Shown: positions 1 to 61,028 of the stretch, piece by piece
How the letters are laid out: each line of letters starts with the position of its first letter
How positions within the stretch are numbered: position 1 is the first letter of the stretch
Assembly: GCF_965363235.1 (NCBI RefSeq)
Contig: NC_134846.1
Span: 58,145,121-58,209,120 of the forward strand
DNA: 64,000 bases
From: Mytilus galloprovincialis
Lineage: Eukaryota > Mollusca > Bivalvia > Mytilida > Mytilidae
Direction of reading: 5' to 3'
Program-made: the position numbers and the translations under genes
The notes under the pieces: model-generated
Told to the model about the DNA's origin: nothing
What the model saw: the letters and a program-made list of their open reading frames with translations, nothing else
The model's database searches: none

Positions 1-122
1 CAACAAATTGTTTGTGACTTTTTGTCCTATCAACTTTGTAACTTTATGCCTGAGTTTGACATGTGTTTGACTTTTTGTCCTGTGACTTTTTGTCGGAATG
101 TCCTGTGACTTTCTGTTCGTTT
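1..122. repeat. degenerate short tandem repeat (GTGACTTTTTGTCC words)
   Basis: The word 'tgactttttgtc' and near variants recur about five times in 120 bases, at irregular spacing. It looks like a decayed short tandem repeat. From here to position 325 nothing coding is visible. Confidence 0.5.
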
Positions 123-325
123 ACCTTCCATCTAAATCAGTGAACTGAATAATTGTTTTTTGCAGAAGTCCGGGGAGTGTTAAAAAATCACATGACTGTG
201 CAAGTTGAGAGTCAACACTTACACAGGGACTACACAATACTTTTTCAGAATGTCAGCAAAAAAGAATCAGTGGTGACAGGGGAGTGTAACCGATGAATTG
301 ATCCTGAATCAGATAAGATTTTCCA

Positions 326-486
326 GGTACGTCTAAACACCGCTCAGGAGGACCTCCTGGTGCACACATGCAGGACATACAAAGTGCACTCATGGCAGAC
401 CCTATATAGTCGCCGTCGTATCTGCACACATGATGGATGCATATATTCGTTATAGATCGTCATACACTTCTCATTTTAGAGTTAAA
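326..486 (+). repeat. dispersed repeat, GGTACGTCTAAACA family, copy 1
   Basis: Begins GGTACGTCTAAACACCGC and ends near TTTTAGAGTTAAA. It shares its whole length with copies at 3567-3700 (same strand) and 4970-5107 (opposite strand), and its first 60 bases with 2045-2104. Inside are the palindrome CAGGAG-GAC-CTCCTG and two 'AGTGCACTCA(G)' words. No ORF. Probably a short non-autonomous mobile element; no terminal inverted repeat was found. Confidence 0.75.
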
Positions 487-1676
487 TCTGCAAGCAACCT
501 CTTAAGATTTTAAAATAATAATGCTACTAAAAATATATTATTTCCCCCAATTTTCGCAATTTTTTCGCCATATAAAATATTTAGGCGACTGTGCTTTTAG
601 TGAATATAAACGATTACGAGGCCTCACGAATAAATATAAATATGAAATATACTGGAACATCGATTAGCATAGATCGAGCAGCAGAGTAAACTTCCACATA
701 AATCTCGAAGTTATTTACGCCGGATAATATAGACTGTGCTCCTGAATAAAGTTGTCAAATACATTAATTTGTGTTTTTTACTTCTACAAGAAATTTGATT
801 CAAATGCTAATTACGCACCATTTGCTGAGCAGAGAATCATTCTAAGCCAGGAACCGTCTATACTAACTGATAACAGTAAGAATAGAACTTGAGTCTCTGT
901 AAAAAGGCAGTCAATCCTAACAGAACTGTATTAACCTATTAACGATACATGTACATCAAGTTCCAGCACCTCACCAAGCACCCTTGCCTTGCATACTGAG
1001 ATGGCAAACTGGTGTGTGTCAGTATTTTAATATAAAACTGCGTAGGTTCATATCGTTTGATTCAACGTTTGTTTGGTTATTTTTTAAGGATCGTTGTAAA
1101 ATTATATCTAAATCTTTGTTAAAATACGATTTTAAATTGTTCAATTCTTTCTATTTCATAATTTTGTCAAAGTCTACTTTTTAAAGTTTTAAATTTTACA
1201 GAAAAAATGAATATTCCATTTTGATTTGAAGAAAATCTTTTTGAACTGTCATGACATGGTGTTGCAAAGCTGATTACAGGTAACTATAACATACAGTAAT
1301 TTTCCATTTCGACAGTGCGTGTATTCTCGGGTGTGTATAACGTATAGTTTTCTAGAGAACATCCTGTCTACGTGTAATACAGATTGATGACATTATACAA
1401 CATTTCTTTGGTTAAATGTGATAAGGTATCTGTGTCCATTCCCTATTTCAACACCACTAATTTTTCGAAGAAAAAAAATCAAAAAAAAATTTATATGAAA
1501 TTAAGAAGAAAAGTAGCAAATATAAACTTCAGTAATTGCGCATTGAGTAAACATAATTCCAATATTGCATGAACAAATCCGTGAGAAAACGTATATATAC
1601 ATGTATGAATAAAGATGTGTTTTAAAAGACCTATTGGCATTATTTCACACTAGGACCTAAGATAACTAGAACTAAG
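487..1676. other. AT-rich stretch, no gene recognised
   Basis: AT-rich sequence with poly-A/T runs. The short open frames at 984-1184 and 1384-1572 are Phe/Lys-rich chance frames without splice context. Nothing further is supported. Confidence 0.5.
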
Positions 1677-1989
1677 CAATGGTTGATCCAGAAATTTTCA
1701 TAAGTGGGGACTCATTGACTGCCTTAGAGTGTTCACGTCCAGTCATGCTTCCGTGATTCCCTATATAATCTACCATTTGTTTCCAAAGATTTAGGAGGGG
1801 GGCTGGTACACACATATATATATAAATATACCTCTGCGGCGGAGCCAGCCATTTGAAAAGGAGGGGGTCTCAACCCAGGACAAAAGGGGGAGGGGTGGTT
1901 CCAACCATAAGTCCCCATTCAAATGCATTGATCGTTCAAAAAAAGGGGAGGTTCCAACCCCCGAAACCCTCCCCCTGGATCCGCCACTG
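1677..1989 (-). mobile_element. composite of GGATCC-type miniature elements
   Basis: The right part (about 1840-1989) is an inverted copy of the element at 4799-4947: CAGCCATTT, a polypurine block, TCCCCATTCAAATGCATTGA, then CTGGATCCGCCACTG. The left part (1677-1735) starts CAATGGTTGATCCAG and matches, inverted, the end of the copy at 6541-6705 (CCCCACTTATGAAAAATTCT). Two related insertions therefore appear joined, with about 100 unrelated bases between them. Confidence 0.65.
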
Positions 1990-2044
1990 ATACCTAGTAT
2001 GCATATAATTAAGAACAGCTTTGAATATATGCATATAAAATAAT

Positions 2045-2104
2045 GGTACGTTTAAAAACCGTTCAGGATCTCCTGGTTGCACACAGGACATTAAGTAACT
2101 TAGG
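2045..2104 (+). repeat. dispersed repeat, GGTACGTCTAAACA family, partial copy
   Basis: GGTACGTTTAAAAACCGTTC, then 'aggatctcctggttgcacac'. This matches the first 60 bases of the family at 326 and 3567; the rest is missing. Confidence 0.55.
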
Positions 2105-3084
2105 ACATATATATATAATAGTAAGAGTTCAGGGTATACATTCGATAACTAACATATTTTATAATTTTGTTATTTTTGTTTTGATAAAATCAGAGACATA
2201 TAATACATGTATTGAGACATATATATATGTGTGTCTCTGAAAAAATCAAACCATCTTTAAAGAAGTTATTTCAGTTTGAATCGACTGTCTTTTGCATTAG
2301 AATTCCAAAACGTTAATGTTATTTACAAATGCCAAAACCTGCAAGAAAGAAACATTTATATTCGGTGATTTTTACACTAAACGTTTTCGTAATTTGTTTT
2401 AAAAAATATTAAAAAGTACATGTACATCGTTTTTTCAAGATTTGTATAGTAACTGGTTTAATTAAGTCCCCTTGATGAAATTTAAATTGCGAGACGCTAA
2501 TTAATAAACTATGATCTATCTATCGGCATGCGTCGTTATTTGGGATACGTCACGGATGACCGATGATCATATTCAATACGATATACCAATCATCATTTGA
2601 ATTTGGTCAATTGATCTTTAATAATTAGGACTAATTGGTGATGGCAGAGAATAAGTCGCTGGTGATGGTTAAAAACACATAGAAGTAAACTTTGCAAAAC
2701 TCGGAAAAAATTATGAAAATATATGAATATGCTAAATATTTTTTTTTTCCGAAATAATAATTAAAGACGTTTAGAAATAACAAATTTTCACAGTTGGGAA
2801 ATTTTCAATTCAAGTTATTTCATTTTGAAAACGTTGAGAAATATAGATCTTATTATATGTTAAATGTGGGCCGCTTGGAGATCAACTTGTGAAACCCTGC
2901 ATAATTAGGGCTTGTCTACTTTCGTCTTTTTCAATTGCCAAACATTCTATAATCAAGGATTTGTACAAGGCCTTGTTATAATGAATATTATCGCCAATAT
3001 CACCATAATTAATTAAAGAACAGATACAATATTCGCCTAAAGAGTTTGCCATCTAACAATTCAAAATGAAATGTTGAGTCGAAA
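2105..3084. other. AT-rich stretch, nothing recognised
   Basis: Very AT-rich with several AATTAATTA words and poly-T tracts. No splice-supported exon, RNA gene or repeat end was recognised. Confidence 0.45.
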
Positions 3085-3275
3085 CTGAGGTACCAAATCT
3101 ATAAAAAGAATCACTATTTTGCACAACTTTTTGAAATTTTGGATCCTCAATGCTCTTCAACTTTGAACTTGTTTGGCTTTATAAATATTTTGATATGAGC
3201 GTCACTGATGAGTTTTATGTAGACGAAACGCGCGTCTGGCGTACTAAATTATAATCCTGGTACCTTTGATAACTA
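3085..3275 (+). repeat. mussel repeat with GACGAAACGCGCGTCTGGCG core
   Basis: Contains 'gagcgtcactgatgagt', 'gacgaaacgcgcgtctggcg' and 'aatcctggtacctttga'. The same words occur in reverse orientation at 13250-13400. I know this as a common short interspersed repeat of mussels. Non-coding. Confidence 0.7.
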
Positions 3276-3566
3276 TTAGTCGAAATTAAACTGTATATAT
3301 TCTTTTTTTCAAAACTCCTGAAATAATTTAACATTATCTATAGAGAGCTTACATATGCAAATCTGTTTAGAAGTATGTGAGCGTAAATAAAATTTGCTTA
3401 TTACCTCCCCCCCCTTTTTTTCCTTCTATAAAATTTAATTGTAAACGGTTTTCGTTCTTAATTTGTGTTTGCTCATTAACTGGGGTTCATGCTGTCAAAA
3501 AACAAAAATGTCTCCTTGTGTAAAAGTTATTGATAAAAAAAAAATTGAAGCTTCCAGAAGAATAAC

Positions 3567-3700
3567 GGTACGTCTAAACACCGCTTGAAGGACCTCCTGA
3601 TTGCACTCATGACATACGAAGTGCACTCAGGACCCTTTATAGTCATCGCACACAGGATGGATGCATATATTCTTTATACGCTTCTTATTTTAGAGTTAAA
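3567..3700 (+). repeat. dispersed repeat, GGTACGTCTAAACA family, copy 2
   Basis: Full-length relative of 326-486, slightly shorter, ending TTTTAGAGTTAAA. It carries the same AGTGCACTCAGGAC word near its middle. Confidence 0.75.
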
Positions 3701-4152
3701 GTTTTATTCTTAATTTTATTATCATGTCCTGGACCAGTAATTAATTCTTTGCACGAGTTTGAAAAGGGAAATAAATGTTCATACTTTAAAAGAATTTATA
3801 TTTATTAAAGTTTTGTATATGGAATCCGTTCTAAACGGTAAAAGCCGTACTTTTCAAACAATCAAACTCATATACATGTAGTTAGATGTTATTTCTCATT
3901 TTTATCGAACTTGTCCAGGAATTTTATTTTTGAGTTATACGAATATTTTAAGAAATCCGTTTTTATTAAGTTTTTTTTCTCTAATTAAAGTCGTTTTGTC
4001 CAGTTTCACAAGCCTGAAACGAATTTCAATGCGAAAATAAATTCTGAAAATGAACTTGTCTCCGTTTTCGTCTCCGTTTTTTAAAAATTATGATATTTTG
4101 GGTATAATTATTTCTAAAAAATATGTAAGTTAGATTGTAGTAGCGAGAAATT

Positions 4153-4215
4153 ATAAAAAAGAAGATGTGGTATGATTGCTAATGAGACAACTATCCACAA
4201 AAGACCAAAATGACA
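4153..4215 (-). repeat. mussel tail repeat (TTGTCTCATTGGCAATCATA), copy
   Basis: Reads 'gaagatgtggtatgattgct', then 'aatgagacaactatccacaa' on the plus strand, the reverse complement of the conserved tail seen in full at about 16050-16132. It is one of about ten copies here. Confidence 0.7.
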
Positions 4216-4798
4216 CAAACATTAACAAAGAAAGACTATTTCGAAGACAGTTTATTAACACGAAATCCGTTCAAACCACGACTAAGTCTTCGTGCACAGA
4301 TTTCCGTTAAGGTTAAACTGAATATTGTACATAATTGTCTTCTCTTGTATAATGGTTTGTTGAGAATAAAGATATACAAATGTAATAAAATTTGATATTC
4401 AGTCAACATTGTGTTTGTTTAAAAACTTGATTTAGATAGAGAGAGAGAAAAGAATCACACTGAAAAACAAAAATCGAACTTGTTACAGAAAAAAAAACTA
4501 TAAAATAATTTTCTTTATTCGTGAACTGCAAAACACAACAAATTAATTTACCCGTCATCATGAAAAATAAACTGAAAAAGCACATCGAATGAGATATATA
4601 TTTTATTTTTTCTATATGCAAATTCATGTTAAAGGTAAAACTGAACTAAACAATACAATTCCTAAAAAACAATAAAGATAATCCAATCAATTTTGTTGAT
4701 TGGATAATTCATGGCTCAGTAGTTGTGTAATCAGTGACACGTGCCCTCATTATTTTATAAGAATTAACATATCTATCTAAGTTCGATTCAGGCGCGGA

Positions 4799-4947
4799 TC
4801 CAGAGGGGGGAGGGGGTTCCGGGGGGTTGGAACCCCACCTTTTTTTGGCCGATTAATGCATTTGAATGGGGGACATGTAGTTGAACCCCCCCTTTTTTTG
4901 CCCTGGGTTAGCCCCCCCCCCTTTTAAAATGGCTGGATCCGCCCCTG
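4799..4947 (+). mobile_element. GGATCC-type MITE with inverted ends and CGATT target duplication
   Basis: Ends CAGGCGCGGATCCAG and CTGGATCCGCCCCTG form an inverted pair. The body has G/C homopolymer blocks around 'gattaatgcatttgaatggg'. Five bases, CGATT, lie directly outside both ends (4794-4798 and 4948-4952), as a target-site duplication would. No ORF. This is the best-preserved of the copies at 1677, 6541, 7416 and 62734. Confidence 0.75.
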
Positions 4948-4969
4948 CGATTTCAACTTCTACCAAAAT

Positions 4970-5107
4970 TTAACTCTAAAATAAGAAGCGTATAACGAAT
5001 ATAAACATCCATCATGTGTGCAGATATGATTACGGTAATGGGTCCTGAGTGCACTTTGTATGTCCTGAGTGCACTCAGGAGGTCCTGAGCGGTTGTTTAG
5101 ACGTACC
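4970..5107 (-). repeat. dispersed repeat, GGTACGTCTAAACA family, copy 3 (inverted)
   Basis: Reverse-complement copy: starts TTAACTCTAAAATAAGAAGC and ends GTTTAGACGTACC. It holds the clearest internal repeat, 'tgagtgcactttgtatgtcc' followed by 'tgagtgcactcaggaggtcc'. Confidence 0.75.
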
Positions 5108-5161
5108 CGAAGAATAAATCATTTCCTGAACCTAAAATACATTTATCTGTAATTAAAGAAA

Positions 5162-5247
5162 ATTCGCCTAAAACATTCTCTCATATAAAAATTCGCCTAA
5201 AACATTCTCTCATATAAAAATTCGCCTAAAACATTCTCTCATATATT
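5162..5247. repeat. 29-bp tandem repeat, three copies
   Basis: ATTCGCCTAAAACATTCTCT + CATATAAAA repeats at 5162, 5191 and 5220, period 29, nearly identical. A recent local duplication. Confidence 0.9.
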
Positions 5248-5340
5248 TAAACAATTAATTGTAAAATAATTAATTCAACGTCGGACTTTCTGTCTGTTTA
5301 CTAATACTTTTCTTGTTCAGTTTAGTTTATACCCATAATA

Positions 5341-5424
5341 GATGAACGGAAATAAGTACTTTTTTTAGGAAAATTTACAACTAGATGAACGGAATTAAGT
5401 ACTTTTTAGGAAAATTTACAACTC
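5341..5424. repeat. 43-bp tandem duplication, two copies
   Basis: GATGAACGGAAATAAGTACT with its following 'ttaggaaaatttacaact' occurs at 5341 and again at 5384. The copies differ mainly in T-tract length. Confidence 0.9.
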
Positions 5425-5429
5425 AAATT

Positions 5430-6540
5430 TTCAAAAACAAAATTCTACACTTTTTACCTGGATGTTTTTCTCTGTCTCGAAGCCGCAACCTTTGACCCCG
5501 TATCAAACGTAGCGACCAACACCTCACATGACGTATTCTCGATGTTGAGGTATTGGCAATATACAATCACATTTATCAATATACAGCAAGTAAGTAATTT
5601 GGTGTTGAATGCCAGTAGATCAGAATTTGTTAATTGAACTTTACCTGTTTAAGGGGCACTAGCTGCCAAATTCATGTTCTTCATCGATTTTAATAAAATT
5701 CACATTAAACGTGTATATAGTGTTGAATTGTTTATTAAAATGTTGCGCACAATCTTGGCTGATATGCATAAAACCATTATATTTCATGACACTGCATGAA
5801 AAAGAAATTGACTTATCGTATAATACCAGAACCAGAGACATATATATTGTATCTAATATCTCTGCCAGAACTAAAAAATAAACTACAGTAAGTCCACATA
5901 CACATAAGAGGGTATGGATGTGAATTAACAGAATAGAGAACAAAGGACAAAGAAAAAAAGGAATAAAGAATAGTGAAAGAAAGAGAATAATGGAAAAAAG
6001 TGTAAGTTATTAAAAATATAACTAAAAAAAGAAGACAGAAAAAAGACACCCTCCGAGACGAGCCTTACATGCACTGTTATTACCCAAGGTTAATTTTACG
6101 GCGGCTCATTTTATTTTGGCTTAGAGAGATCTTAGAAATAAACATAATTGACAAGTTTCCTTCCCCTGCATTCTCGATCCCACATGTAAATAGCACGGTG
6201 ATTTTCAAAAAGACATTGATACATCATTACAACACACACTTGCCGTCAGTATTTGAATATATTGATTAAGAAGGTATAGAAGATTAATGCACGCACACTA
6301 TTATCCACCACTGGCCTAAATAGTTAGTCCTCAAACAACGAGGGTAATAAAAACCCAGCACTTTGAACACAGCCACCGGCATGGTGTGAATCTGAAAGCT
6401 TCCCACTATCCATTTCTACCCATAGAAAACTTTTGCCTTTCATTTATCAAAAATGAAATATGTTGATATTAATGGTATACAAGAATTATTGGGGAATTCA
6501 AACCATTCCTATTGTAAGTGATAAAACTAAATTTATATCA
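5430..6540. other. no gene recognised
   Basis: Overlapping minus-strand frames at 5659-6049 are low-complexity Phe/Leu/Ser frames over an A/G-rich tract and have no splice context. The plus frame at 6069-6269 is likewise unconvincing. Confidence 0.4.
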
Positions 6541-6705
6541 GGGTGATTGAAATGAGGAAAAAAAAGGGGGGATCAGGAGTTCAGGGCCCCCTGTTTGGGA
6601 AAAGAATTGGTTGATTATATATGGAATCACTGAGTCATGGCAGGAGCAGGCCCCTCTTAGGCAGTCGGTGGGCCCCACTTATGAAAAATTCTGGATCCAC
6701 CACTG
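6541..6705 (+). mobile_element. GGATCC-type miniature element, degenerate copy
   Basis: Ends CTGGATCCACCACTG at 6705 after 'gggccccacttatgaaaaat'. The inner block matches 1690-1735 in inverse orientation. The left end is blurred. Confidence 0.5.
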
Positions 6706-6837
6706 TGGTCAGGGTGGTCTTCAGTTGTATTATCTTTTTTTTTTTTAAATTACACCTGTATAGTGTATATTCTTTAGTGTAAATCAAGGGAAACTACTGT
6801 GAACTATCTGTGCATTGGGGCTTATTAAAAGGTATAT

Positions 6838-7430
6838 CGGGGGGGGGGGGGAAGAAAGAAGGGAGGGTGAGTCCATGGGAGGTAATCCCCACCCCTTTCA
6901 ATTTGAGAATATGCTATTATCTTGTAAACGGTCCAGATCCCCATCCCTAAACCATATATATTCTTGAATGGGACGATAAAACAAATCAAATGAAATTAAA
7001 AGGAGGTCTTTGGGGGTTTCACCACTCTGTTCAATTTGAGAATGTGCTATTATCTTGTGAATTATCCAGATCCCCACCCCTAAACCATATATATTCTTGT
7101 CGGGGACAATAAAATTAATAATGAAATAAAATAAAAGTGAAGTCCCACCCCCTCTAGTTTGAAAACTTGTAAACGGTCAAGATCCCCACACCTAAACCAT
7201 ATTTATATATTCTTGTATAGAACAATAAAACAAATAAAAGGAAATATAGGGAGAGTCCATGGGGTTCACCCCTACTCCCACATGTTTGAGAAACTTTTAA
7301 ATGGTTGAGATCCCCTGTCATCCAGTGGTTAGGTGAAAAAATTTCAGGATCCCTGATCCCCACCGTCAAACCATATATATTCTTGTATGAGACAATAAAA
7401 CAAATCAAATGAATATAGGATCACCCCCTT
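6838..7430. repeat. degenerate tandem array, unit about 115-170 bp, four copies
   Basis: Four copies carry 'cagatcccc', 'ctaaaccatatatattcttg' and 'acaataaaacaaat'. The TTCTTG anchor lies at 6961, 7094, 7210 and 7380, so the unit length varies. A G-run starts the array, and a GGATCC-element fragment (7416-7481) follows it. The ORF at 7154-7408 minus is a by-product of the array. Confidence 0.75.
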
Positions 7431-7481
7431 TGTCTTGGGTTGGGAACCCCCTTTTTTAAAATGGCTGGATCCGCCCCGGCA
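7416..7481 (+). mobile_element. 3' fragment of GGATCC-type MITE
   Basis: 'ttgggttgggaacccccttt' then AAAATGGCTGGATCCGCCCC matches the right end of the element at 4799-4947; the left part is missing. Confidence 0.6.
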
Positions 7482-7689
7482 TACCATCTAGCTAGCTATA
7501 AAGGCTTTAAAAATATGAAATCAAAAAAGGAAATTAACAGTTTAGGCAACTGTTTTGAATTTAAAAAAAAGTCTTTTACATATATAACAATGTTAAATTT
7601 TTTGTGCATTTATTTTTGCTTATCGTATTTTCAATAATGGACAAAATTGCATGATTGAATATTGTAATTTAAGAAAAATCAGCATACAT

Positions 7690-7810
7690 GATATAAAATG
7701 GGAAGTGGAAACTGGGAATTTGACAAAGAGACAACAACCCAATCAAAGAGCAGACAACGGCCGAAGGTCACCTATGGGTCTTCAATGCAGTGAGAAAAAT
7801 TCGGCACTGG
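7690..7810 (-). repeat. mussel short interspersed repeat (GAAGGTCACC family)
   Basis: 'gacaaagagacaacaaccca', 'agcagacaacggccgaaggt' and 'tcttcaatgcagtgagaaaa'. The same arrangement occurs at 39045-39300 and, inverted, near 50600-50745. Confidence 0.6.
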
Positions 7811-9340
7811 TCTTCAGCTCATAAATATGTATCAGAAATGAAAACGAGATACAGCTTTCAGTTGTATTAATAAAAACCTCATAATAAGTTCTGAATATCA
7901 GAATATACAGTATTGCAAGATTCTCTCAAAATGTACACATAGAGCTGAAAAACTGTCAGTGACTGTAAAATTAATCATGCTAACATTAAAGTCCATGGAG
8001 TCCATCTTAATATGCATACTCTCGTACAAAAGAATATAAGTATGCAATAGACATCAAGTTTTCAAAAATAAGAGTATCTATGCCATTAATTTACGACAAG
8101 ATCTGAATCAAGTAATAATTTCGGTTTGTTTAAATATTTCGGAGGTTAGTATGACCTCCTCTTTGGTGATGATGTTTTCGTTTTAAAGTTGGGAAAATTG
8201 TTTGTACATGTACCAACAAAAATAAAAACACAAAGTCAATCTAGAATTATGTTTTTATCATTTTTTTATGTTTAGGTTGTCAACAAGATGAAAAGGACAA
8301 GTATGCAGTTCAAAATTCAAAATGTGGATAAGTTGAGGTTCTAGGTCTTACCTTTGCAGATTTTCATATTTTGCATGAATGAAATCAAAGGTTATATGAT
8401 GGACAGCAGAGAAAGAAAAAAACAACTTTTCAATTATCCTGCTCCTGGATAAATGTAAAACATCTTGTTTTTCGGTAAGTTTTATGCTCTGTTTTGATAG
8501 TGTTAGTGCATTCATCTTTCCAGTCTTTCCTCTAAATTGTAAGTTTTTGGTGAGTGTTCACCATGAATTTCAGTAAGTAACTTGTGGATTTACATGTATA
8601 TACTCAAAATTTAGTACTAATATTAATGGGATTTTAGCATGACATCCTGCCAAATGCTTGTTAATCATGTTTATGTTCCAGAACAAACAAGTATTTGGAC
8701 TGTACGCTTGCCCAATTTTAAGAAGTTGGTCAAGTTTATTACAAACAAATGTACAGTACAGATCAACATAACTGAAATCTTAAATAGATTAATACAAAAA
8801 GTTTAATTGCAGTTAAAATAAAAACACAGGTTTGGTCGAGCTGGTACCAGACAGTACAAATATACTTAAATGGTCTGACTGTACACATATGGTGGGACTG
8901 TAAGTTCTGGACCATAAAAGTAACATCCGAATACTGATATGGTCTGGAACATTTATACATGTCTTAAAATTAATATCAAACACATTGGTGTTTGATAGAA
9001 CTATAATGTTTTGGGATATCAAAATCAAAAATATCCCATTTTTACTTTTAATAAAGAAGAAGATTATTGATGTATGTTTAAATGTATATTAAAATGAGAC
9101 AGCAAGCCAACAACACAAAAAATAAGGATAAAACATACATATTTTTTTTTGTATCAATGTTATAATTTCCAATATGTTCAAGGTATTTTTTCATTGAAAT
9201 AAAACACAAATTGAAATCTGTCTGAACTTCAAAAGCTTAAAGAAATATTGTTTCTGTTGTCTGCATTTTGTATAATATATTGCAAATTCTTGTGAATAAT
9301 GGAATGTTATTATAGTTGTCTAAAGTTTTAACATTGATCT
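7811..9340. other. no gene recognised
   Basis: AT-rich single-copy-looking DNA. Minus frames at 8763-9028 have no motif or splice support. A small hairpin GGAGGT-TAGTATG-ACCTCC lies near 8152-8170. Nothing else is supported. Confidence 0.4.
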
Positions 9341-9345
9341 TGATA

Positions 9346-9552
9346 CTGTAAATTCATAAATTATTGCGTGCATTTATTATTGCGATTCTGTCATTTTAAG
9401 ACTTAAATGCGATTTTAAATTTTACGATTTTGAGAAAAATCCTGTTTAATCCATATAAAATATTTCATAATGCAAGTTTAAATTATTGCGTTTACAACTC
9501 CGTTGCATTTTTCGCAATAAAAAAAAAACTCGCATTAATTCCGAATTTACAG
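9346..9552. mobile_element. MITE with CTGTAAATTC ends and TA target site
   Basis: Left end TACTGTAAATTCATAAATTA and right end 'ttccgaatttacagTA' form an inverted repeat, each with an outer TA dinucleotide (9344-9345 and 9553-9554), as expected of a mariner-like insertion. Internal words such as 'attattgcg' and 'cgcattaat' extend the inverted ends. No coding capacity. This type is common in molluscs. Confidence 0.8.
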
Positions 9553-9644
9553 TATATATATATATTATGTATATAACTTGGGAAAATACCCAAATGTTAT
9601 AAAGAAGAATAAATTAATTGATTGTTATATGGTATTAGAATAGG

Positions 9645-9715
9645 AAGATGTGGTATATTGCTAATTTGACAACTCTCCATCAGAGACCAAAGGATGTAGG
9701 CCGTTAGCAACTGAT
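9645..9715 (-). repeat. mussel tail repeat, diverged copy
   Basis: 'aggaagatgtggtatattgc', then 'gacaactctccatcagagac', the inverse of the conserved tail, with several differences. Confidence 0.6.
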
Positions 9716-10422
9716 GACACTGGACAACCTTTAACAATCAGTAAAATCCATATCGCATAGCTATTTTTATTGAAAATCATATTATTGCTACATGTATGAA
9801 AACAATTTTGTATAATCCATTACTTTAGATTTTATTGGTTCTTTTTCAGAAGGATTGAAATTCACCACCTAGAATAAATGGAGAAAACATAGAAACAAGA
9901 CCAGAATAAATTCAAAGACAAAAGTTGGATCAGTTATTATTTTCATCACTCAGTCAATGATTTGAAGTTCTTTTAAATTCAAAAAAATATTGAAACCACA
10001 ATAATTTTAAAGTTCTGTGCTGAATGTCCAAAAAGTGGACTATACCATCAAACAATGCTGGATGATAAGAAACTATTAATGTTTTGTGTTGAGGGATATT
10101 GTGAAAAAAATAGATTTACTTAAATAGCTACTAGTATGTTAAGCCTAACAATAGAGTTTTTATTGATTTCAAATGGCAAATAATTGTGTTTCAAGAAAGT
10201 ATTCTATAATTCATGAATAAACATATATTGATACTTACATTATCTGCTTTGTTGTTTAAAAGTTTAGTTTTGAACAGTTAAAGAACAATATGCTAAATTA
10301 ACATTTCCCAAGAAAAAAAGATATTCAATTAAAAAGATTCATCTTATAATAATTTACTACCAAATAGAAAACATTGTAACATACACATTACTGTTTATTT
10401 ATATCTATATATTTACAATTAG

Positions 10423-10627
10423 AATCCCATAGGATTTTAATTTGTCCCATGGGATATTAAAAATCCCATGGGATTTTTTTTGTCCCATGGGACAACAAAT
10501 ATCCCATGGGACTACAATAATCCCATGGGACAAAAAAAAATCCCATGGGATTTAACCAAAATCCCATGGGATAATGGTAAATCCCATGGGATTTTGCCCT
10601 GTCCCATGGGATATTGAAAATCCCATG
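10423..10627. repeat. phased array of TCCCATGGGA palindromes (nine exact copies)
   Basis: The perfect palindrome TCCCATGGGA starts at 10445, 10464, 10483, 10502, 10521, 10541, 10562, 10582 and 10602. It is bracketed by an imperfect unit at 10425 (TCCCATAGGA) and a half unit at 10621. Spacing is 19, 19, 19, 19, 20, 21, 20, 20, about two DNA helical turns. Every exact copy sits in the larger word RTCCCATGGGAY. The 9-11 base spacers all differ and are mostly A/T-rich. The period is not a multiple of three, so this is not a coding repeat. TCCC-NN-GGGA is the known binding consensus of COE/EBF transcription factors; a role as a site cluster is inference. A minisatellite is the plain alternative. 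Confidence 0.95.
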
Positions 10628-11369
10628 TTTTTATAATTCAAATTGCAAAATAAATATGAAAGTAACTGTAGAAAACCAATGAAATTATTGAATCCCATGT
10701 AATTCTGCACATTTTGGTTATATACATGATATTGTAGCTCTTGTTTGAGGCGGCGGCGGATTTGCAAATGAGTGTTTTGCAAATTAAAAGTGTCCAGTGT
10801 TCATACTAGCTTCGTTTTATTGGCCTGAAACGGGCAACAGAATCGAAACATCAACAGACAGCAGAGTGTGTTTAGCCGCCTTAATGCTACAGTATATGGC
10901 ATACAAAACCGTACCTCAAAAAATAACTCTTAAAAACCAAACCCTACAACAAAAATACTGGTATCCAAAAGAATCAGACAATAAAGTCAGTAGTAGTAAA
11001 AGACAATTTATGCATTAATTTTAAGGTATTGTTTATTTGGGGTATGAATTAAAAAACCAGTGGAGGGATACTTGGTGAAAGTAAAACAAGAAAGTAAAAG
11101 AATAATTAAGTAATATTTGTTTATAACTCTTAATCATCTCCACAGCAACCACGGGGTCTACGTTTCATACTGTAAAACACCAACAAATCACCACTTTCAA
11201 ATGTTGCTGAACTTTGTCAAAGTCTGTCCCTTATTGGCAACAGTTGTTTGCTTCTGTTTGTCATAAATTGGGAGTGTAGACCCGATACTGTTGAAAAATG
11301 TTCGGTAAATTTTCAAAAAGGATCACCACTAGCAGTGCAACAGAAGCTGTATAGGTATTATGTTCTTAT

Positions 11370-11739: not shown

Positions 11740-11820
11740 AAATTAGAAGATGTGGTATGATTCCCAAAGAGACAAATTTCTACCAAAGACGAAATGACAT
11801 AGAGGTTGACAACGGTTATT
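11740..11820 (-). repeat. mussel tail repeat, diverged copy
   Basis: 'gaagatgtggtatgattccc', then 'agagacaaatttctaccaaa' on the plus strand; the inverse of the conserved tail. Confidence 0.6.
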
Positions 11821-23235: not shown

Positions 23236-23243
23236 CTGTTTTT

Positions 23244-23447
23244 GTCCAAAACCAAGTTTATCTCAACCGAAATCAAATCTTTTTCATATGTCTTGTCCAA
23301 AACCAAGTTTATCTCAACCGAATACAAATCTTTCTCATATGTCTTGTCCAAAACCAAGTTTATCTCAACCGAAATCAAATCTTTCTCATATGTCTTGTCA
23401 AAAACCAAGTTTATCTCAACCGAAATCAAATCTTTCTCATATGTCGT
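23244..23447. repeat. 51-bp minisatellite, four copies
   Basis: GTCCAAAACCAAGTTTATCT + CAACCGAAATCAAATCTTTC etc. starts at 23244, 23295, 23346 and 23397, period exactly 51. Copies differ by one to three bases. Because 51 is a multiple of three, frames on both strands stay open as 17-residue repeats ('SCPKPSLSQPKSNLSHM' on plus, a Glu/Asp/Lys-rich unit on minus). This explains the open frames at 23136-23517. No start, splice or flanking coding evidence supports a protein. Confidence 0.95.
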
Positions 23448-59763: not shown

Positions 59764-61028
59764 GGGCCCCGCTGTCAATAACGTGGGGTAAATAAGTTGT
59801 ATGGATAATCTGATATGAAGCATTATTTGAAGTTATTACATAGTCTCACTGTGATTTTAATCTAAGATTTTAAGTTAAAACTGATAAATATTCTCAACTT
59901 ACTTTCATAGTATAATAGTGATATGACTGCATGATGTGAACTCATTGTTGACTACTCTAAGGTGTCTTCTGGATATATGGATTGATGTTTGAACAATATG
60001 TTTAATGATGCTGCCCAATTGATATTTGTCACATATTTTTAGAATTATGCCTTCAATATATTATGACCCACCAAGTATAAAGTATGAAATATTAACGGTT
60101 CCCGAGAGGTAGAGCGGACACAATTTGTTAAGAACAACGAATGGATGGACAGACCGACGGACTGACCTTTGACCTAGGATGCATACATTATGACACATTC
60201 TCTGGTGTTGGTTAATATATATGTTAAGTTGAAAATGTTTGTCAGGTATAAAGTATGAAATAATAACAGCTGTCCTCTCAAAATATAGTGTGGATCAAAT
60301 TTGTTAGCGATGGACAGACCAACAGACAGACAGACCTTTGACCTAGGAAGTGGTACATACATCATGACACACCCTCTGGTGTTGGTTAAAATGGATGTCA
60401 AGTATAATATTTGAAATCATAACGGTTCTCAAAATATAGAGCGGACACTATCTTCACAACAGGACACGGGGTTGTCAACTGAAACCAAAGTTTTTTTGAC
60501 GTTGACCTTTGACCTAGAAAGTTGTACATACATCATGACACGCCCTCTGGTGGTGGTTAAAATGGATGTCAAGTATAAACTTTGAAATCATAACGGTTTT
60601 CTAAATATGGAGCGGACACGATCTTCACCACAGGACACGGGGTTGTCAACTGAAACCAAAGTTTTTGACCTTGACCTTTGACCTAGGAAGTTGTACATAC
60701 ATCATGACACACCCTCTGGTGTTGGTTAATAATCATGTTAAGTATTAAGTATAAAATCATAACGGTTATCTAGATATGGAGCGGACACGATCTTCACCAA
60801 AGAACACAGGGTTGTCAACTGAAACCAAAGTTTTTGACCTTGACCTTTGACCTAGGAAGTTGTACATACATCATGACACGCCCTCTGGTGGTGATTAATA
60901 TACATGTAAAGTATAAAGTATGAAATCATAATGGTTCTCTAGATATGGAGCGGACACGAAAGTGTTACGGATTGACAGACGGACGGACAGACTGATCACT
61001 ATAGGGCGACCCGCCTATGGCGGGGCCC
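59764..61028. mobile_element. possible pearl/Helitron-like element bounding the 170-bp array
   Basis: GGGCCCCGC at 59764-59772 and its inverse GCGGGGCCC at 61020-61028 bracket the tandem array. The right edge has a GC hairpin (CCCGCC-TAT-GGCGGG) immediately before CCCTAA, resembling a Helitron 3' end (hairpin then CTRR). Bivalve 'pearl' elements are known to carry tandem arrays of about 160-170 bp. No replicase is encoded, so it would be non-autonomous. Assignment is inference. Confidence 0.5.
60075..60990. repeat. 170-bp tandem array, about five units, with TGACCTTTGACCT
   Basis: Each unit has 'gacctttgacctagg', 'tacatacatcatgacac', 'ccctctggtgttggttaa', 'tataaagtatgaaatcataa' and 'gagcggacacgatcttcacc'. 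The GACCTTTGACCTAG anchor lies at 60164, 60333, 60504, 60673 and 60842 (spacing 169, 171, 169, 169). The first two units and the end of the last have 'ggacagaccgacgg'-type sequence where the middle units have 'ttgtcaactgaaaccaaag', so the array is of two unit types. Minus frame 60401-60174 is array translation. Confidence 0.92.

Follow-up and report, generated by a model that had tools for sequence, protein, structure and literature searches.

Arrays of identical palindromes in the long terminal inverted repeats of a giant, apparently non-autonomous DNA transposon of Mytilus galloprovincialis as probable docking sites for a dimeric protein

Non-autonomous DNA transposons known so far are mostly short. 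Polintons (Mavericks) have AG termini, a target site duplication (TSD) of about 6 bp and an encoded DNA polymerase and integrase. We considered a Polinton-like origin for the mussel element described here on account of its size and rejected it on its AAC termini and 4-bp TSD; neither a DNA polymerase nor an integrase was seen among the ten open reading frames (ORFs) scanned. Many short repeats near both ends are a feature that this element shares with the hAT transposons Hermes, Tol2 and Ac. In the account of hAT ends given in PMC10368747, the BED domains of the transposase contact such subterminal repeats beyond the cleavage site, with cooperative binding at a quasi-palindromic pair, and the target of Hermes is 8 bp long, against a TSD of 4 bp in the mussel element. 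The mussel repeats differ further in being perfect 10-bp palindromes, set in steps of 19-21 bp within terminal inverted repeats (TIRs) of about 460 bp, and no transposase was seen in the interiors scanned (ten ORFs). Galileo, of the P superfamily, is similar in that long TIRs with possible tandem repeats, abundant non-autonomous copies and several subfamilies per genome are described for it (PMC4168063). The same source gives it a TSD of mostly 7 bp and repeat units of about 140 bp, in contrast to 4 bp and 19-21 bp here, and kinship with Galileo was rejected on the TSD. Chapaev (CMC) elements were considered for their TSD of 3-4 bp, and the mussel terminus AACACTG does have CAC two bases inside its end. 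Chapaev termini are however described as invariably 5'-CAC and GTG-3' (PMC4079192), a mismatch to the AAC...GTT of the mussel inverted repeat that led us to discard this assignment.

The 64-kb window, i.e. the whole stretch of DNA that was analysed, contains nine exact copies of the palindrome TCCCATGGGA, which start at 10445, 10464, 10483, 10502, 10521, 10541, 10562, 10582 and 10602 (steps of 19, 19, 19, 19, 20, 21, 20 and 20 bp). All nine lie in this one array, against a mean expectation of 0.02 for the window, and none of 100 shuffles reached nine. Read directly, the letters of each unit (9/9) are RTCCCATGGGAY. An earlier note, made from the sequence alone, had described nine identical palindromes at 19-21 bp with freely diverged spacers of 9-11 bp, and both points held: the eight spacers of this right arm have a mean pairwise identity of 0.42 against 0.40 when shuffled, and 414 of 2000 shuffles were as high. 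Because the palindrome is held while the spacers diverge, the array is not an ordinary minisatellite, in agreement with that note, and the even divergence along the unit that is the hallmark of a minisatellite was not found. The further claim that the copies share one helical face failed. The nine sites span 157 bp, which is about 15 turns of 10.5 bp and not 16, and at this pitch the phases are only weakly concentrated in the right arm (R=0.36, approximate p=0.31) and in the left arm (R=0.41, p=0.19). The array as first described began at 10423, two bases ahead of a degenerate unit, TCCCATAGGA. A degenerate unit CCCATAGG occupies a comparable position in each arm of the window copy and of a copy at C1:28.3M; the same defect occurs in 6 of the 7 ends read of a second subfamily that reach this place, with a further alteration in the old copy L079, and looks as if it were retained.

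The array sits within the right TIR of a 15,782-bp DNA transposon, which extends from C9:58140140 to 58155921, its left end lying 4,981 bp to the left of the first base of the window (Table 1). When the adjoining 8 kb on the left (L065) were compared with the window, a left TIR emerged whose ten palindromes run in inverted order, the two arms (window 10344-10804 and about -4508 to -4983) being 91% identical over 480 columns. The ends of the element are AACACTG...CAGTGTT, and the termini adjoining the TSD are AAC...GTT. An exact 4-bp TSD was present in seven out of ten end pairs, comprising 6/9 scripted pairs (CATA, ATTA, AACT, TAAT, AAAT and AATT) and the AAGT of the C1:41.47M pair (L085/L086), which was read by eye. 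The pairs with no exact TSD are those at C1:28.3M (ACAT/AAAT), C1:82.1M (CGTG/CGTA) and C8:51.5M (GCCG/CTAT). The last two span 33 kb and 36 kb, respectively, and their ends may come from separate insertions. Inverted repeats, a TSD of fixed length and dispersed copies with differing flanks place the element among the DNA transposons with TIRs. The window also holds other repeats: a short dispersed one at 4155-4209, 9637-9691 and 11740-11794 (the first two within the transposon, the third beyond it), a 51-bp unit present four times at 23242-23445 (96% matches) and 3.7 copies of a 169-bp unit in tandem at 60333-60959.

Table 1. Features of the right end of the transposon, in window positions.
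Feature	Position	Strand	Basis
Transposon interior, continuing to C9:58140140	1..10343		Longest stop-to-stop ORF there 115 aa
Right TIR, ~458 bp	10344..10801	-	Match to left arm (about -4980 to -4508); common end 10801
Degenerate inner unit TCCCATAGGA	10425..10434		Same one-base change in subfamily 2 ends
Nine exact TCCCATGGGA palindromes	10445..10611		Count against shuffles; steps of 19-21 bp
Half-unit TCCCATG, outer side of the array	10621..10627	+	Read from the sequence
Second outer half-unit TCCCATG	10693..10699	+	Read from the sequence
Terminal motif AACACTG-N10-ATTTGC-N13-GCAAATC	10759..10801	-	Also in subfamily 2
Right copy of the 4-bp TSD CATA	10802..10805	+	CATA on both flanks of the element

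The genome searched comprises 1.38 Gb in 331 contigs. The scan for further TCCCATGGGA clusters suggested by the earlier note gave 3,291 adjacent palindrome pairs with AT centres (the pattern is symmetric and its equal reverse-strand count was left unadded). A triple-unit pattern, CCCATGGG, gave 2,635 matches and its control, CCCTAGGG, none. Window segment 9700-10420 was found at full length and 98-100% identity in 39 other places (of 287 candidates, 40 were scored, the window among them), and the 39 non-window places matching segment 10400-10900 (40 of 458 candidates scored) all stop at 10801-10809; beyond ...GTGTCCAGTGTT the flanks differ from copy to copy. A shorter form of the terminal motif, AACACTG-N10-ATTTGC, has 542 matches (270 forward and 272 reverse) against 41 (18 and 23) for the same motif read backwards, which suggests roughly 500 ends and hence some 250 elements. 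Among the motif matches listed, 56 are on C1, where 38 of them form 19 inward-facing pairs and 18 are unpaired. These pairs span 6.7-36.6 kb with a median of 18.3 kb, 14 of the 19 falling between 14.6 and 23.1 kb. For each of the eight arrays of at least three units among the matches listed, every one of them on C1, the terminal motif lies no more than 175 bp away on the outer side. Two solitary palindrome pairs, at C1:40800492 and C1:46492919, have no terminal motif nearby among the matches listed and look like fragments. A divergent 9.5-kb end pair with the same terminal motif, at C1:61492691-61502181, is perhaps a third subfamily. The paired-palindrome pattern had no match in a set of viral contigs, from which records close to the genome of the window may be absent. 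Among the titles listed, none from a full-text literature search for the letters TCCCATGGGA concerned a transposon end, and none named this transposon family, which does not show that the family is undescribed.

The family has at least two subfamilies. Subfamily 2, represented by a copy at C1:40.2M and its relatives (40 of 223 candidates scored), has tips beginning AACACTGTGCGGG and TTCCCATGGGAA units that are mostly 21 bp apart, with spacers of its own; the tips of both subfamilies carry the terminal motif of Table 1 in its full length. Their interiors share pieces of at least 200 bp at 64.8-86.8% identity. An internal repeat of about 500 bp (L065:5931-7055 and L071:1243-2780) is 78-87% identical between the subfamilies and is the best conserved long part of the interior. 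When subfamilies 1 and 2 are aligned globally, 20 of 97 palindrome columns differ, because the arrays fail to align unit by unit; 53 of 86 spacer columns and 140 of 269 columns of the outer TIR differ as well. Subfamily 2 arrays contain runs of exact 21-bp steps, and the one end tested is out of phase overall (R=0.25). Its ten spacers are alike beyond chance (0/2000 shuffles as high), the five inner ones being 0.87 identical, and the left-arm spacers of the window copy show a borderline similarity (136/2000). In the right arm of the C1:40.2M copy (C1:40256917-40257110) two units have AA and two have TT at the centre, all four with unbroken TCCC/GGGA arms; the 800 bp read at its left end showed no such units.

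The interiors appear to be non-coding, judging from their reading frames, and the elements would hence be non-autonomous. Stop-to-stop ORFs reach at most 148 aa in the window part, in L065 and in L069 and L070, pieces of two other copies (their main pieces 94-100% identical to the window element, mostly 96.8-99.5%, with indels), 105 aa in 5 kb of the C1:28.3M copy (L066) and 99 aa in the subfamily 2 pieces (L071-L072). A Pfam scan of ten ORFs (87-146 aa) found no match above a curated cut-off, a scan that genes split by introns could escape, and its four sub-threshold matches (best E 0.021) look like chance. In the part viewed of a translated comparison of the two subfamily interiors, similarity runs through stop codons and is present on either strand, an argument against shared coding sequence there. 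With no ORF longer than 148 aa and no domain in the ten ORFs the elements look non-autonomous, and neither a transposase nor an autonomous copy was found in the interiors fetched (two subfamilies, ten ORFs scanned). No Rfam family of structured RNA reached the gathering threshold in the window.

To see which parts of the TIR are held we compared arms and copies, bearing in mind that the tests count related copies as independent and that several contrasts are weak singly. Between the two arms of the window copy differences were found at 0/90 palindrome positions, 1/77 in spacers and 18/284 in the rest of the TIR (palindromes versus rest, p=0.009). The corresponding counts for the left arm of the window copy against the C1:28.3M left arm are 0/100, 2/86 and 22/280 (palindromes versus all the rest, p=0.004; versus spacers, p=0.21). 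Between a subfamily 2 end (L074) and the old copy L079, 10/140 palindrome positions, 35/188 spacer positions and 34/196 positions outside differ (palindromes versus spacers, p=0.003; versus outside, p=0.008); the ten palindrome differences are confined to the seven inner units, the innermost of which stands at a shaky edge of the alignment, and none falls in the seven outer ones. A set of 47 distinct ends was taken from the best-scoring places and is therefore mostly young. The order of spacers is identical in 22 of them and most others differ by small changes, units are gained or lost between copies, and 7/47 ends have a broken unit. Variants shared among these ends affect 0/100 palindrome columns, 6/86 spacer columns, 5/190 columns of the outer TIR and 43/144 of the inner side (palindromes versus spacers, p=0.009; versus outer TIR, p=0.17, not significant). 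Private mutations number 8 in 4,550 bases, 16 in 3,901, 21 in 8,930 and 55 in 6,760, respectively; palindromes are if anything rarer hit than spacers (p=0.063) and do not stand apart from the outer TIR (p=0.56). We read these counts as indicating that in settled copies the palindromes may be broken at roughly the rate of the outer TIR, and that spreading lineages retain them. That palindromes are fixed while other parts of the TIR diverge, yet are broken in single copies, points to selection for mobility and not for a function at individual loci. Spacers too are nearly fixed within subfamily 1, which together with the p values of 0.17 and 0.063 means that free decay after landing is not proven.

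These comparisons also bear on the idea that the array is a functionless minisatellite expansion in a transposon end, whose palindromes seem conserved only through the youth of the copies. The gain and loss of units, the alike spacers of subfamily 2 and the borderline left arm are in its favour, and the two spacer results indicate that tandem duplication does make units. Yet the right-arm spacers are at the shuffled level next to nine identical palindromes, two subfamilies with widely different spacers and outer TIRs have the core palindrome in common, and the L074/L079 comparison separates palindromes from spacers, so that we regard this idea as extremely unlikely. A simple minisatellite was thus rejected for the window array, where spacers have diverged around invariant palindromes; subfamily 2 does show recent duplication of units.

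Instead, the array is probably the subterminal part of the long TIR of a giant non-autonomous transposon, with palindromes that act in cis as sites for a dimer supplied in trans. A dimeric DNA-binding protein, predicted in the earlier note, would be the natural reader of symmetric half-site palindromes that are held while spacers diverge, and this reader is most likely a transposase. Each TCCC-(2 bp)-GGGA unit would be bound by one symmetric dimer, the row of sites would load several dimers per end and help to bring the ends together in pairs, and the palindromes would let the transposase recognise an element without a gene of its own. Selection would then act on transposition, lineages with intact palindromes spreading, and a landed copy would decay along with the rest of the element. 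The separate conserved terminal motif could alone be the transposase site. A host protein unrelated to transposition might instead read the palindromes as a transposon-borne insulator or silencing module, much as the Drosophila gypsy element carries a row of su(Hw) sites. An array of identical sites, A/T-rich spacers and elements with no recognised gene would suit such a module; the symmetric placement in both TIRs close to the ends, as for transposition signals, does not, and we hold it to be very unlikely.

The COE/EBF consensus is given as ATTCCCNNGGGAAT and TCCCNNGGGA (PMC4512700), and the resemblance seen by the earlier note is borne out, since the TCCC-NN-GGGA arms of the window units fit TCCCNNGGGA and the TTCCCATGGGAA carried by subfamily 2 fits TTCCCNNGGGAA. 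On C4, five exon-like matches at one place reveal a COE DNA-binding domain of the host. A search for TCCCNNGGGA with free centres gave 3,669 adjacent pairs, of which 3,291 have AT in both centres. Among the other 378, both centres consist of A/T alone in 345, and G or C occurs in 33; at most 13 contain TA, and the remaining A/T variants are therefore chiefly AA or TT, as in the intact-armed units of the C1:40.2M right arm. This pattern would suit a protein that recognises two half-sites and favours certain central bases to some extent, be it a dimeric transposase or COE/EBF. As the arms match the consensus and stay intact in the commonest centre variants, there is room for the host COE protein to bind the palindromes as a homotypic site array for expression, chromatin opening or mobility in COE-expressing cells. 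Still, AT in both centres of most pairs does not suit a consensus with a free centre, the element pieces fetched offer no recognisable gene for an enhancer to drive (ten ORFs scanned for domains), single copies have broken units, and phasing on one face fails in both window arms and in the subfamily 2 end. The mussel palindromes differ from COE/EBF sites in riding on a dispersed transposon, and COE binding to them, like any regulatory effect, is putative. We consider binding by the host COE protein unlikely and favour a transposase, because the sites are symmetric in both TIRs of elements with no recognised gene, like the subterminal repeats of hAT. The local homotypic enhancer of the earlier note was abandoned as primary explanation, since the array belongs to the terminus of a dispersed transposon; nearly half of the ends compared repeat the same spacer order, some have a broken unit, and the phasing is missing. 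A bolder possibility, somewhat more doubtful still, is that mobility of the transposon depends on COE/EBF, or on a transposase that has converged to its half-site rule, through arrays of about ten sites in both ends.

In all, the elements are unusual in size, as judged from the C1 end pairs among the matches listed, and the pieces sequenced have no recognisable gene. Because their ends bear a clean row of identical dimer sites that can be counted, how many sites transposition requires, and at what spacing, can be tested directly. Should a host factor be the reader of these sites, the transposon would be distributing the sites of a developmental regulator across a genome. If mobility does depend on COE, transposition would be tied to COE-expressing cells, and several thousand strong COE sites would be scattered in the mussel genome.
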